This document shows positions 7,455 to 59,447 of a stretch of DNA of 64,000 nt, one piece after another. Source of the stretch: Limnothrix sp. CACIAM 69d (GTDB lineage: Bacteria; Cyanobacteriota; Cyanobacteriia; CACIAM-69d). The notes below the pieces were generated by a model. It did not search any database and was not told where the DNA came from. It saw only the letters and a program-made list of their open reading frames with translations. The stretch is taken from NCBI GenBank assembly GCA_001913845.2, contig MKGP02000007.1, positions 1 to 64,000 on the forward strand, read 5' to 3'. The position numbers were made by a program, and so were the translations under genes. Positions within the stretch are counted from its first letter, which is position 1. Each line of letters opens with the position of its first letter.

Positions 7455-7529
7455 ATTGGAGATTCAGGGATGGCCCGGGAGCAGTGTGCTCATCACTGAA
7501 AACCATGGCCCGCAGGTGGATAAGCACTC

Positions 7530-8180
7530 ATGATTCAGGCAGCAATCTTGGCAGGTGGTCAAAGTCGCCGAATGGGGCGCGACAAGGTGTTGCTGCCTTG
7601 GAATGGACAGCCCATGCTCCATCGGGTCTGTGAGGTGGCCATTTCGGTGACGGAACGCCGACCGATTATTTTTTCGCCCTGGCCGGAACGCTACCAAACC
7701 CATCCCGCCACGGCTGCCTTGCCGGTGGATTGGTGGCGGGAGTCGGCGGCCGATCGGGGGCCGCTGTTGGCTTTTTCGGAGTTGCTCGATCGCGCGGCCC
7801 GAGACCTAACCGACATTAATTGGGTGTGGCTGCTGGCTTGCGATTTGCCCTGTTTGGATGGGCCCGTTTGTCGTTCCTGGCTCGATCGCCGCCACGCCCT
7901 CAGTTCCAAGCAAGTGGCGTTGGTTCCACGCACCGATCGTGGTTGGGAACCCCTGTGCGGGCTGTATCGACCCGCGATCGCGCCCCAACTGCGGACTTTT
8001 ATTGATCAAGGCGGGCGATCGTTTCAGGCCTGGTTAGACCAACTGGCAACGGAACAGCGAGCCATTTATCTACCGCTGACGACGCTGGAGGCGGCTACCT
8101 TGCGCAACTGCAACAGCCCTCAGGATCTGCAAGATTTCTTGCGCCACCGGGCCCCAGCCTCAGAGAATCCAGACAACTAG
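7530..8180 (+). CDS. mobA: Molybdenum cofactor guanylyltransferase MobA
   Basis: MobA transfers GMP from GTP to molybdopterin, giving the MGD cofactor used by bacterial nitrate reductase and related enzymes. The 216-residue protein has the nucleotidyltransferase N-terminus AILAGGQSRRMGRDKVLLPW, with the LAGGxSxRMGxDK signature. It also has the DLPCLDGPV segment, where the metal-binding Asp sits in the ACDLPCL strand. The length is in the family range. It lies alone between CRR7 and the UmuD-like gene. It would serve molybdoenzymes encoded elsewhere. Confidence 0.9.
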   Translation: MIQAAILAGGQSRRMGRDKVLLPWNGQPMLHRVCEVAISVTERRPIIFSPWPERYQTHPATAALPVDWWRESAADRGPLLAFSELLDRAARDLTDINWVWLLACDLPCLDGPVCRSWLDRRHALSSKQVALVPRTDRGWEPLCGLYRPAIAPQLRTFIDQGGRSFQAWLDQLATEQRAIYLPLTTLEAATLRNCNSPQDLQDFLRHRAPASENPDN

Positions 8181-38039: not shown

Positions 38040-38231
38040 TTACGACGATTGGGGCATGGAAAATCAACCATTTCAGCTTGCGCCCAACTAATGATGACAG
38101 CCCCTAGGGCCGCCCATCCACAGCCTTGCGAATTCCAGAGAAAGTCGATTGAATCTTGATCGGGCGATTTGCCCAATCACGATTTTGGCCAATCACAGTT
38201 CAGTCACAACATTATTTTTAGGAAACCGATT

Positions 38232-38915
38232 TTGTATCTCCTAATTCCGGCGGCCGGCTCCGGCAAGCGAATGGGCGCGGATCGCAACAAACTCCTGATC
38301 GATTTGGCGGGCGAAACGATTTTTGCTTGGACGCTGAAGGCCGCCCAGGCCAGCCCGTCGATCGCCTGGATTGGGATCATGTGTCAGCCGATCGACCGGC
38401 CCGAGTTTGAAGCGATCGCCCAGGGCCTGCGCCTGACCAAACCCGTGGTGTTCATCCAGGGCGGCGACACCCGCCAAGCCTCGGTCTACAACGGCTTGCA
38501 AGCCTTGCCCCCGGAAGCTGATCGCGTTTTGATCCACGACGGGGCCCGCTGCTTGGCCACGCCAGAACTGTTCGATCGCTGCACCGCTGAGCTGGCCACC
38601 TGTCCGGGATTGATCGCCGCGATCCCCGTCAAGGACACGATTAAGCAGGTGGACGCGAACCAAATCGTTAGCAACACGCCCGATCGCGCCACCCTCTGGG
38701 CCGCCCAAACGCCCCAAGGTTTTGAAGTGGCTACCCTCAAGGCCTGCCATGATCGGGGCTTGGCCGAAAACTGGGAAGTCACCGACGATGCGGCCCTGTT
38801 TGAGCGCTGCGGCCTGCCGGTGAAAATTGTGATGGGCGAAGAAACCAACCTGAAAGTCACCACGCCCCAGGACTTGGCGATCGCGGAATTTATCCTCCGC
38901 CAGCGCCAACCCTAG
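38232..38915 (+). CDS. ispD: 2-C-methyl-D-erythritol 4-phosphate cytidylyltransferase IspD
   Basis: IspD couples MEP to CTP in the non-mevalonate isoprenoid pathway that feeds chlorophyll phytyl tails and carotenoids. The 227-residue protein has the CTP-binding loop IPAAGSGKRMGADRNKLL, GGDTRQASVYNGL, VLIHDGARCL and TPQGFEVATL. The best start is TTG at 38232, giving MYLLIPAAG as in other cyanobacteria, with AGGA nine bases upstream. An ATG 21 codons higher would add a peptide without homology. The TTG start suggests low translation. Confidence 0.93.
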   Translation: MYLLIPAAGSGKRMGADRNKLLIDLAGETIFAWTLKAAQASPSIAWIGIMCQPIDRPEFEAIAQGLRLTKPVVFIQGGDTRQASVYNGLQALPPEADRVLIHDGARCLATPELFDRCTAELATCPGLIAAIPVKDTIKQVDANQIVSNTPDRATLWAAQTPQGFEVATLKACHDRGLAENWEVTDDAALFERCGLPVKIVMGEETNLKVTTPQDLAIAEFILRQRQP

Positions 38916-54690: not shown

Positions 54691-54891
54691 GGGTCAAAGG
54701 GGGGTGAGGGCAGGGGGATGCTACTGCCGTCCCTATTCTACTCAGCCGTTTGGCACTGTCGGGAACTGCGCTCTTGGCCCAGACGCAGGGGGGCCGGTGT
54801 CTGATGCAATCGTTACCGTGATCGGGGGTGGGAGCTGGGCTACACTCAAGGCGCGATCGGGACGATAAAAAGACGATAAGAAGGAGTGTTT

Positions 54892-56496
54892 ATGACCGGC
54901 ACTGCGTCATTGTGGCAGCGTTACCAAGACTGGCTCTACTATCACGAGGGCTTGGGGCTGTATCTGGACGTGAGCCGGATGCGGTTCGATGATGCATTTG
55001 TGGCTCAGATGCAACCCAAGTTGGCGAAAGCGTTTGGGGATATGACCGCTCTGGAATCGGGGGCGATCGCCAATCCCGACGAACAACGGATGGTGGGTCA
55101 CTATTGGCTGCGGCAACCGGACTTGGCCCCAACGCCGGAATTGCGGGACGACATCATCAACACCCTGAACCGCCTGGAAGCTTTCACAACGGCCATCCAC
55201 AACGGCCGGCTCACGGCCAACGGTCAGCCCTTTACCGATGTGTTGTCGATCGGGATTGGCGGTTCGGCCCTGGGGCCGCAGTTTGTGGCGGAGGCCTTGG
55301 CTCCCAATCAGCCGCCCTTGGCCATTCACTTTGTGGACAACACCGACCCCGACGGCATCGATCGAATTCTATCCAAGAGCACGGGCGGCTCCCCCCTGCG
55401 CGATCGCCTGGCCACAACCCTGGTGTTGATCATCTCCAAGTCCGGCGGCACACCCGAAACCCGCAACGGCATGGTGGAAATTCAAGCGGAATTTGGCCAA
55501 GCCGGTTTGCCCTATCACCGCAACTTTGTGGCCATTACCTGTGAGGGCAGCGTCTTGGATCAACGGGCGATCGCGGAAGGTTGGCTCGATCGATTCCCGA
55601 TGTTTGATTGGGTCGGTGGCCGCACCTCGGAACTGTCGGCGGTGGGGCTGTTGCCGGCGGCGCTCCAAGGAATCCAAATTCGGGAAATGCTTGTGGGTGC
55701 GCAAATGATGGATCAGGCCACCCGAGACCGTAACCTGAAAACCAACCCCGCCGCCCTGTTGGCCCTCTGCTGGTATTCCGTGGGCCGCGGCAAGGGCGAA
55801 AAAGACATGGTGGTTTTGCCTTACAAAGACCGGCTACTGCTGTTTTCGCGCTATCTCCAGCAGTTGGTGATGGAATCCTTGGGCAAGGAACGTGACCTGG
55901 ATGGCAACTTGGTTTATCAGGGCATTGCCGTGTATGGCAACAAGGGCAGCACCGATCAACATGCCTATGTGCAGCAGTTGCGCGAAGGGGTTCCCAACTT
56001 TTTTGCCACCCTGATTGAGGTGCTGGAAGATGGCGGCTCGGGCGTGGTGGTGGAAGACGGGGCGATCGAGTCCGGCGATTACCTCAGCGGGCTATTGCAA
56101 GGCACTCGCCAAGCGCTCTACGACAACGATCGCGAGTCAATTACCATCACGGTTCCCCGCGTCAACGAGCGAATTGTAGGGGCCCTGATTGCGCTCTATG
56201 AACGGGCTGTTAGCTTCTACGCCTCCCTGGTCAACATCAATGCCTATCACCAGCCGGGCGTTGAAGCCGGTAAAAAAGCCGCCGCCAACATCTTGGCGCT
56301 GCAAAAGCGGCTGGTGTCGGCCTTGCAAGATGCGGGGGAACCCCTGTTGATTTCGGAGTTGGCAACGCAGGTGGGGGCGATCGAGCAGGTGGAAACGGTC
56401 TATTGGATCCTGCGGCACTTGGCGGCCAATGGGCGTGGCCCGGTGCTGGTGGGTAATCCTGGACAACCGGCCAGCCTGAAGGTGTCTTGGAAATAG
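54892..56496 (+). CDS. pgi: Glucose-6-phosphate isomerase Pgi
   Basis: Pgi interconverts glucose 6-phosphate and fructose 6-phosphate in glycolysis, gluconeogenesis and the oxidative pentose phosphate route. The 534-residue protein has [19 protein letters not shown], the sugar-phosphate site [16 protein letters not shown], the catalytic Glu in [15 protein letters not shown]-adjacent [12 protein letters not shown], and [17 protein letters not shown]. The ATG at 54892 has AAGGAG seven bases before it; a GTG two codons higher is less likely. The length and motifs fit the cyanobacterial enzyme. Confidence 0.96.
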
Positions 56497-56698: not shown

Positions 56699-57763
56699 CT
56701 ATTCCGGTTCCCGCAGGCGATCGGGCCCCACCCACTCATCCCAATTTTCGTCGTAGTCGTCATAGCTGATGTGGTGCAGGCCATACCAAGCCTTTTTGAC
56801 CGTTGCGGGATACCAATCGCCCGCCTCATCCTGCACTTCCACCGCCGCTCCTAGGTCATACATCACCGGTTCGTAGGGACGGATGCGATCGGGCGTGACC
56901 CACTCTTCCGACTGATCCACCACGTATTGCACTCGATACTGTTCGTCACCGTCTTGATCGCTGACTTCCAAAATTTTTGCCCGATACCAATCCTCCTCAT
57001 ATTCCACCTCCACCCGGCGGCCCAATTGGGGATCAAATCGGTCTTTCACTCGCGATAGTTGCATTTGTGGATCAAAATCATGGGTTGTGAAAAACATTGA
57101 TTTTTGATCTTCAATGAATGCCACTTCCAATTCCGTGTAGCGGGCAAAATCGTAAAGTGTAATCACCCGATCTTCATCCAAATCAACAGTGGGATCGCCT
57201 TGTAATCCCTTCAGCAAAGAAGCTGTAAAAGTCCAAGCGCCCGTTGAAGTGTTGTGGGCATAGGCAGAGGTCACACAGGCGTAAGCAATTTCGCTTTCCC
57301 GCCGTTTTGCTTCATCAATCAGTCCTCCAGAGAAACAGCAGTCTGCCATCAGCAGGGCATGGGAACCATTGAAATTTTCTTCAATGTCGTCAAAAATGCT
57401 GGACACTTTCCAATAGGTTTCCGTATCTTCCGCATCGGCATCATAGTTGTAAAAATAATGTTCTCCCGATTCGGAATCCCAGCCACCATGGCCAGCAAAG
57501 TAGAGCATTAAGAGGGCATTTTCATCGGTGCTGGCCAAAAAATCCGGCAGTTTAGATTGAATGGCGGAGAGGGTGGCTTGACGATCCTGAAGATAAATAA
57601 TTTGAGATTTAGGCACGCCTTGGTTGCGGAAAAATTCCACTAACTGCGCGTCCGATCGATTGGGGACAGCATCCGGAAAAGGGGCGAAGGCTTCTGAGTC
57701 TTGCCACTCCAGCAAACCCACCGCAAAGATCCAAGTTGTTTCGGGATTCCATTCCATGGTCAT
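56699..57763 (-). CDS. Caspase-like (orthocaspase, C14) protein with two C-terminal Tudor/Agenet-like domains
   Basis: A 354-residue protein. Residues 10-240 form a p20-type caspase-like fold: WIFAVGLLEWQDS, the catalytic His92 in LYFAGHGGWDSESG and the catalytic Cys142 (or 143) in ALLMADCCFSGGLID. The specificity segment TSAYAHNTSTGAWTFTASLL follows. Residues 247-296 (GRRVEVEYEEDWYRAKILEV, then YVVDQSEEWVTPDRIRPY) and 304-352 (GAAVEVQDEAGDWYPATVKKAW, then YDENWDEWVGPDRLRE) are two Tudor/Agenet-like barrels. Orthocaspases are arginine/lysine-specific proteases linked to stress and cell death in cyanobacteria. The Tudor pair is unusual. Both catalytic residues are intact, so activity is likely. 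Confidence 0.88.
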   Translation of the reverse strand: MTMEWNPETTWIFAVGLLEWQDSEAFAPFPDAVPNRSDAQLVEFFRNQGVPKSQIIYLQDRQATLSAIQSKLPDFLASTDENALLMLYFAGHGGWDSESGEHYFYNYDADAEDTETYWKVSSIFDDIEENFNGSHALLMADCCFSGGLIDEAKRRESEIAYACVTSAYAHNTSTGAWTFTASLLKGLQGDPTVDLDEDRVITLYDFARYTELEVAFIEDQKSMFFTTHDFDPQMQLSRVKDRFDPQLGRRVEVEYEEDWYRAKILEVSDQDGDEQYRVQYVVDQSEEWVTPDRIRPYEPVMYDLGAAVEVQDEAGDWYPATVKKAWYGLHHISYDDYDENWDEWVGPDRLREPE

Positions 57764-58151: not shown

Positions 58152-59447
58152 ATGGAAAGCCAATCGCTGTTTGTGGGTGCGCGCCAAAATCTCGATTTGG
58201 CCCTGAAACATATCGCCATTTCGGAAGATGCGATCGAACATTTAAAACATCCCAAAGCCAGTCTGCAAGTTTCAATTCCCGTGCGGATGGATGATGGATC
58301 GCTGCAAGTTTTTCAGGGCTACCGAGTTCGCTATGACGATACGCGCGGCCCTGCCAAAGGTGGCGTTCGCTATCATCCTCAAGTGTCGTTGGATGAGGTC
58401 ACATCTCTAGCATTTTGGATGACCTTTAAATGTGCGGTTTTGGATTTACCCTTTGGCGGTGGCAAGGGTGGCATTACAGTTAATCCCAAGCAGCTTTCGC
58501 GATTGGAATTGGAGCGTTTAACGCGCGGCTATATTGATGCGATCGCGGACTTTATTGGGCCCGATGTGGATATTTTGGCCCCCGATGTTTACACCAACGC
58601 CACGATTATGGGTTGGATGATGGATCGCTACAACATCATTCAGCGCAAGTCCTGTCCGGCGGTGGTGACGGGCAAGCCGATTGCCCTGGGCGGCAGTGCG
58701 GGCCGCGAAACGGCCACGGCCATGGGGGCGTTTTTTGTGATGCAAACCATTTTGTCCAAGTTCGATCGCCCACCGGCTGAAACCACCGTTGCCATTCAAG
58801 GATTTGGCAATGCGGGCAGCTTTTTGGCGGAACAAATCCATCGGGCGGGCTATCGAGTGGTGGCGGTCAGCGATTCCAAGGGCGGGATCTATGCTCCGGC
58901 GGGGCTGGATATTCCTGCCATTCGCCAAAACAAAGAAGCGGGGCGGGGCATGGAGGCCCTTTACTGCCATGGCACGGTTTGCAACATGGCAGATCACCAA
59001 TCGATTACCAATGAAGCACTCTTGGAACTGCCCGTTGATGTGTTAATTCCGGCGGCGCTGGAGAATCAAATTACAACGGAAAACGCCGATCGAATTCAGG
59101 CTAAATTGATCTTTGAAGTGGCGAACGGGCCGATTACCTTTGAGGCCGATCGCATCCTGAATCAAAAGGGAGTTTATGTTTTGCCGGATATTTTGACCAA
59201 TGCAGGCGGTGTGACCGTTAGCTACTTTGAATGGGTGCAAAATCGGAGCGGTTTGTATTGGTCGGCGGCGGAGGTGGAACAGCGGTTGGCGGAACGGATG
59301 ACCCGCGAAACGGAGCAGATTTGGCAGCTTGCCCAATCACTGGATCTGTCCCTGCGGACGGCTGCCTATGTCCATGCGCTCGATCGCCTGCGGGCAGCGA
59401 TCGAGGTGAAGGGCACGCGCGACTATTACGCACAAGCGAAAGCCTAA
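58152..59447 (+). CDS. gdhA: Glutamate dehydrogenase (Glu/Leu/Phe/Val dehydrogenase family)
   Basis: A 431-residue amino acid dehydrogenase, reversibly converting 2-oxoglutarate and ammonium to glutamate. VRYDDTRGPAKGGVRYHPQVS and FKCAVLDLPFGGGKGGI contain the catalytic lysines. ILAPDVYTNATIMGWMMD holds the catalytic Asp. TVAIQGFGNAGSFLAEQIHRAGYRVVAVSDSKGG is the NAD(P)-binding Rossmann fold, ending in DSKGG. EVANGPITFEAD closes the cleft. Length and motifs match Synechocystis GdhA. AAGGA lies upstream of the ATG. In cyanobacteria it complements GS-GOGAT late in growth. Confidence 0.92.
   Translation: MESQSLFVGARQNLDLALKHIAISEDAIEHLKHPKASLQVSIPVRMDDGSLQVFQGYRVRYDDTRGPAKGGVRYHPQVSLDEVTSLAFWMTFKCAVLDLPFGGGKGGITVNPKQLSRLELERLTRGYIDAIADFIGPDVDILAPDVYTNATIMGWMMDRYNIIQRKSCPAVVTGKPIALGGSAGRETATAMGAFFVMQTILSKFDRPPAETTVAIQGFGNAGSFLAEQIHRAGYRVVAVSDSKGGIYAPAGLDIPAIRQNKEAGRGMEALYCHGTVCNMADHQSITNEALLELPVDVLIPAALENQITTENADRIQAKLIFEVANGPITFEADRILNQKGVYVLPDILTNAGGVTVSYFEWVQNRSGLYWSAAEVEQRLAERMTRETEQIWQLAQSLDLSLRTAAYVHALDRLRAAIEVKGTRDYYAQAKA

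Follow-up and report, generated by a model that had tools for sequence, protein, structure and literature searches.

Bacterial chromo-like domains have been described as the source of the chromatin readers of eukaryotes. The report of Kaur, Iyer, Subramanian and Aravind (2018; PMC5906684) places the caspase-like peptidase among the commonest partners of these bacterial chromo-like (Tudor/Agenet) domains, with fusions of the two in planctomycetes, cyanobacteria, Bacteroidetes and Chloroflexi; in its main text the bacterial proteins are consistently secreted and keep their aromatic cage in part, and the ligands suggested for them are methylated lysine-like moieties in peptides of murein or of the matrix. 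That report thus makes the caspase-barrel fusion, and with it the idea of a methyl reader, already known. The cyanobacterial protein described here resembles those fusions in having both domains in one chain, in its tandem barrels and in its aromatic cage. It differs in belonging to a branch without a signal peptide, the published fusions being secreted, and in having one full and one half cage: measured against the main text of Kaur et al., it is the signal-peptide-less orthologue group and this one-full, one-half arrangement that set it apart.

Other known proteins resemble it only in part. The orthocaspases of cyanobacteria (PMC8283722) share the Peptidase_C14 domain, the His-Cys pair and the possession of an accessory C-terminal domain, but a survey of 473 of them has no Agenet among its 35 accessory Pfam domains (PMC8283722). 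Arabidopsis metacaspase-4 is the best solved sequence match, extending to the motif SGGLIDEAK after the catalytic Cys; the match is limited to the p20-like core, however, and the Tudor barrels have no counterpart there. Barrel 2, for its part, finds its best solved matches in the MRG/EAF3 chromodomains and the Tudor domain of PHF20L1, with the same cage spacing, but these are eukaryotic chromatin readers with no caspase attached.

The gene lies in a 64,000-nucleotide stretch of DNA (the window: positions 1 to 64,000, forward strand, of contig MKGP02000007.1 of Limnothrix sp. CACIAM 69d), where the open reading frame and homologue alignment define a 354-residue coding sequence running from 57763 to 56699 on the minus strand. 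Translation could start at ATG codon 1 or at codon 3, the one that aligned close orthologues use. The plus-strand neighbours, at 54886-56496 and 58152-59447, are presumably a glucose-6-phosphate isomerase-like and a glutamate dehydrogenase-like gene (names recognised from the translations). Scans for promoters and terminators gave no excess over shuffled sequence. Comparison with a 97%-identical congener (dN 0.015, dS 0.233) indicates purifying selection. Genome profile scans find four caspase-like genes in this host in all; its only Agenet matches are the two barrels of this protein.

The preliminary description, made from the DNA alone, had proposed a caspase-like protease fused to two Tudor/Agenet-like domains, and this architecture is borne out by matches above the Pfam cut-offs, by Foldseek, by a structural model of barrel 1 and by sequence profiles for barrel 2. 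The caspase-fold domain spans residues 8-238 (57050..57742, minus strand). Its Peptidase_C14 match scores 34.3 bits (Pfam cut-off 21.4), a profile search of solved structures finds metacaspase-4 (E 3.8e-9), and Foldseek matches MALT1 and metacaspases, even with a low-confidence full-length model. (A technical note: the full-length AlphaFold model is poor past residue 160, and only the caspase core was used from it.) Influenza haemagglutinin matches that came up in a single-sequence search of the PDB are taken as spurious, since they disappeared once a profile was used. The protein falls short of the threshold for the EACC1-associated caspases (NF047832; 47.6 bits against an NCBIfam cut-off of 140), and a PADLOC run returned a generic caspase match only.

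Alignment with metacaspase-4 and seven homologues places the catalytic pair. His92 (57488..57490, minus), already singled out in the preliminary description, is invariant. The nucleophile put forward there, Cys142, has to be moved by one residue: position 142 is Phe in one homologue, while Cys143 (57335..57337, minus) is invariant, occupies the third position of a D-x-C motif and aligns with the metacaspase-4 cysteine. The catalytic cysteine of the metacaspase TbMCA2 is Cys213, with Asp211 two residues ahead of it, which is the place of Asp141 here. The S1 pocket of metacaspases contains two aspartates, Asp95 (in helix 1) and Asp211 of TbMCA2, which mark basic P1 specificity (PMC4357240, PMC6426788). 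Asp141 (57341..57343, minus) is invariant at the position of the second (PMC4357240), and Asp38 (57650..57652, minus), a candidate for the first, is likewise invariant and stands at the start of a helix (residues 37-47) in the predicted model; it was equated with Asp95 by motif and helix position rather than by superposition of structures. The two acidic S1 residues that go with metacaspase- or orthocaspase-like basic P1 specificity are present, and their invariance supports cleavage after Arg or Lys, which had been assumed from the outset, as the natural prediction for the caspase half. An acidic EF-hand-like loop, DLDEDRVITLYD (residues 194-205; 57149..57184, minus), is conserved across homologues, with D194 and D198 invariant, and may have a role in Ca2+ binding.

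The tail consists of two barrels. The whole protein matches Agenet at 44.9 bits (Pfam cut-off 27), and each barrel clears that cut-off independently in the genome scan: barrel 1 (residues 247-297; 56873..57025, minus) at 28.2 bits and barrel 2 (residues 299-352; 56708..56869, minus) at 29.3 bits. The tandem repeat claimed at first reading is readily located, with V-E-V at residues 251 and 308, W-Y-x-A at 259 and 317 and the closing (D/E)EWVxPDR(I/L)R at 286 and 342; the local score of one repeat against the other, 70, is reached by none of 2000 shuffles (maximum 57). Structure prediction for the tail, the check originally suggested, answers for one barrel better than for the other. When the tail was modelled separately, one model of five was confident: barrel 1 forms a five-strand, SH3-like Tudor/chromo barrel, with a pLDDT of about 87 over most of model residues 8-54, and superposes on the MRG2 chromodomain (Z 9.3, 1.6 Å over 54 residues), its closest solved structures being the MRG2 and RBBP1 chromodomains and the PHF1 Tudor domain (Z about 9). 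Barrel 2 is modelled with low confidence, and its fold is assigned through sequence profiles (Pfam, and the PHF20L1 and MRG701 chains). For the tandem as a whole, the Foldseek top match is the Agenet repeats of Arabidopsis AGDP3.

What distinguishes the two barrels is the aromatic cage, whose absence, if joined by a failure to bind, the preliminary description had regarded as fatal to a methyl reader. The cage of MRG701 is formed by H37, Y42, Y62, W65 and W69 (PMC5084153). In profile alignment, Y42, Y62, W65 and W69 fall on Y318, Y334, Y337 and W341 of barrel 2, with a common Y-x2-aromatic-x3-W spacing; H37 has no aromatic counterpart, so that four of the five MRG701 positions are represented. 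The stretch concerned, which also includes W317 (W317, Y318, Y334, Y337, W341; 56741..56815, minus), is conserved in the intact orthologues: it is identical in G033, L007/G645, G008 and G428, and G261 differs by Y318L alone. It persists in orthologues whose barrel 2 shares just 59-74% identity with that of the window. Barrel 1 has only two cage positions. A two-residue shortening has removed the last two from all close orthologues, where Asp and Ser/Thr stand instead. Barrel 1 is also the less conserved: its identity is below that of the protease in 10 of 10 pairwise comparisons and below that of barrel 2 in eight of the 10. (Another technical note: an alignment of the two barrels only and a pairwise alignment of the repeats both misplace the cage segment, and cage positions were consequently taken from multiple alignments.) The cage is thus present in barrel 2 and half lost in barrel 1, and because of that loss the view of the two barrels as equal readers does not hold: barrel 2 is a candidate full-cage reader and barrel 1 is not.

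Is the protein secreted, as its published relatives are? By hydropathy, neither the window protein nor its close orthologues have a hydrophobic signal-like N-terminus; their N-terminal region has the hydropathy of a core beta strand. The open frame extends upstream of the matched start by seven codons in the window, six in L007, nine in G261 and 16 in G428, too short a stretch in each case to accommodate a signal peptide. G033 has 26 extra N-terminal codons, and they are not hydrophobic. The frame of G008 runs on farther before it closes and crosses hydrophobic stretches found in no other orthologue; starting at its nearest ATG this protein has no signal, but by way of the upstream frame it could conceivably have one. 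The branch appears, then, to be intracellular (cytosolic). Three distant homologues (L012, L030 and L036; 29-33% identity), all from one metagenome-assembled genome (G053), have hydrophobic signal-like N-termini and would conform to the picture given in the main text of Kaur et al. (2018); with 9% contamination in that genome, their origin is not certain.

Other Agenet proteins of cyanobacteria were also encountered. A conserved protein of about 435-450 residues (L015, L018, L044, L046, L049) has tandem Agenet barrels, no signal peptide and an unassigned N-terminal region of the form KSIVQLVDELP..DNITVKVLKA; one member was scanned with Pfam and gave no match outside the barrels. These proteins may be read as another indication that not every Agenet protein of cyanobacteria is secreted. 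Small open frames of 131-150 residues (L020, L014, L040, L041, L045) combine a signal-like N-terminus with two Agenet barrels, and a 328-residue frame (L042, in G056) joins two Agenet-like stretches to a signal-like N-terminus and, by eye, to a CAP/SCP-like C-terminal region.

Besides that of the window, five intact genes, in scattered genomes, were found among about 760 cyanobacterial genomes (an estimate of different genomes, because the genome draws overlap): G033 at 97% identity, G645 at 72-73% (its protein identical to that of L007, a metagenome-assembled genome of the Oscillatoriales), G008 at 69%, and G428 and G261 at 64%. A sixth genome, G193, has a remnant (L057, about 7470-7665) in which codons 2-26 directly adjoin codons 313-352. 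Only the congener G033 is syntenic with the window at the gene; the G008, G261 and L007 loci share no neighbours with it, and no conserved operon or defence-type neighbours were found, hence none that would suggest a partner for the protein. The patchy distribution, the remnant and the lack of a constant neighbourhood are in keeping with a mobile accessory gene that is prone to loss. Among viral contigs neither the whole protein nor the tail has a relative (one weak match is to the caspase only), phages yielded no relative, and plasmids gave only two weak matches, both owed chiefly to the caspase. (An observation in passing: the remnant-bearing contig carries a homologue of the window gene at 38169-38915, and so does L007, with its intact gene.)

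What we infer from the sequence about enzyme activity, P1 specificity, cage ligand and docking can be put together as follows. The protein would be a cytosolic protease of caspase type, with His92 and Cys143 as its catalytic pair, cutting after Arg or Lys; its tandem Tudor/Agenet tail would dock substrates or an activating partner, with barrel 2 as the reader. Surrounded by acidic residues, the four-aromatic cage of barrel 2 would hold the side chain of a cationic residue, most plausibly a methylated Lys or Arg, and an unmodified Arg or Lys elsewhere in the docked partner would be brought to the active site; a P1 residue that was itself methylated would be expected to fit poorly. Barrel 1 would be mainly structural, or a degenerate reader. 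The computed pI of both halves, 4.2, suits cationic ligands. We give this proposal an even chance of being right. The narrower claim, that methyl-Lys or methyl-Arg reading sets the choice of substrate in a bacterial cytosolic protease, one barrel reading while the other drifts, we regard as rather unlikely. PrmA, present in this genome but nearly universal, could supply methyl-lysine from within. A search of the genome turned up no SET-domain writer, which makes a plain peptide-docking or autoinhibitory role for the barrels nearly as likely as methyl reading.

Such a role, in which the barrels simply mediate protein-protein or intramolecular contacts (for autoinhibition or oligomerisation) with no preference for methyl groups, their aromatics packing against a peptide or the enzyme's own linker, is a serious contender, if one we would not bet on. 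ZapC, a bacterial Tudor-like protein, offers a precedent in binding the FtsZ tail without methyl marks (PMC4686002), and the degenerate cage of barrel 1, like the undetected writer, is in keeping with it; packing alone, however, would not predict that barrel 2 should keep the positions of a methyl-lysine cage. It is improbable that the protein is instead an enzyme of the cell wall or matrix, secreted so that its barrels can attach to peptides of murein or the matrix and its caspase can cut there, as the generalisation in the main text of Kaur et al. (PMC5906684) would have it: the signal-like N-termini of the three distant homologues agree with that generalisation, but the close orthologues have no signal peptide, and in the window, L007, G261 and G428 there is no space for one. 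More improbable still is a tail that recruits the protease to DNA or RNA by binding nucleic acid; certain Tudor and chromo domains do bind nucleic acids, according to the main text of the same report (PMC5906684), but this tail is strongly acidic.

The original reading is, on balance, partly supported. If the proposal of a docked, methyl-reading protease is true, methyl-mark-directed proteolysis would exist outside eukaryotes. A signal-less branch with methyl-cage positions on a protease would be a small model for intracellular methyl reading in bacteria, and the same protein would allow one to ask whether methyl reading can steer proteolysis.
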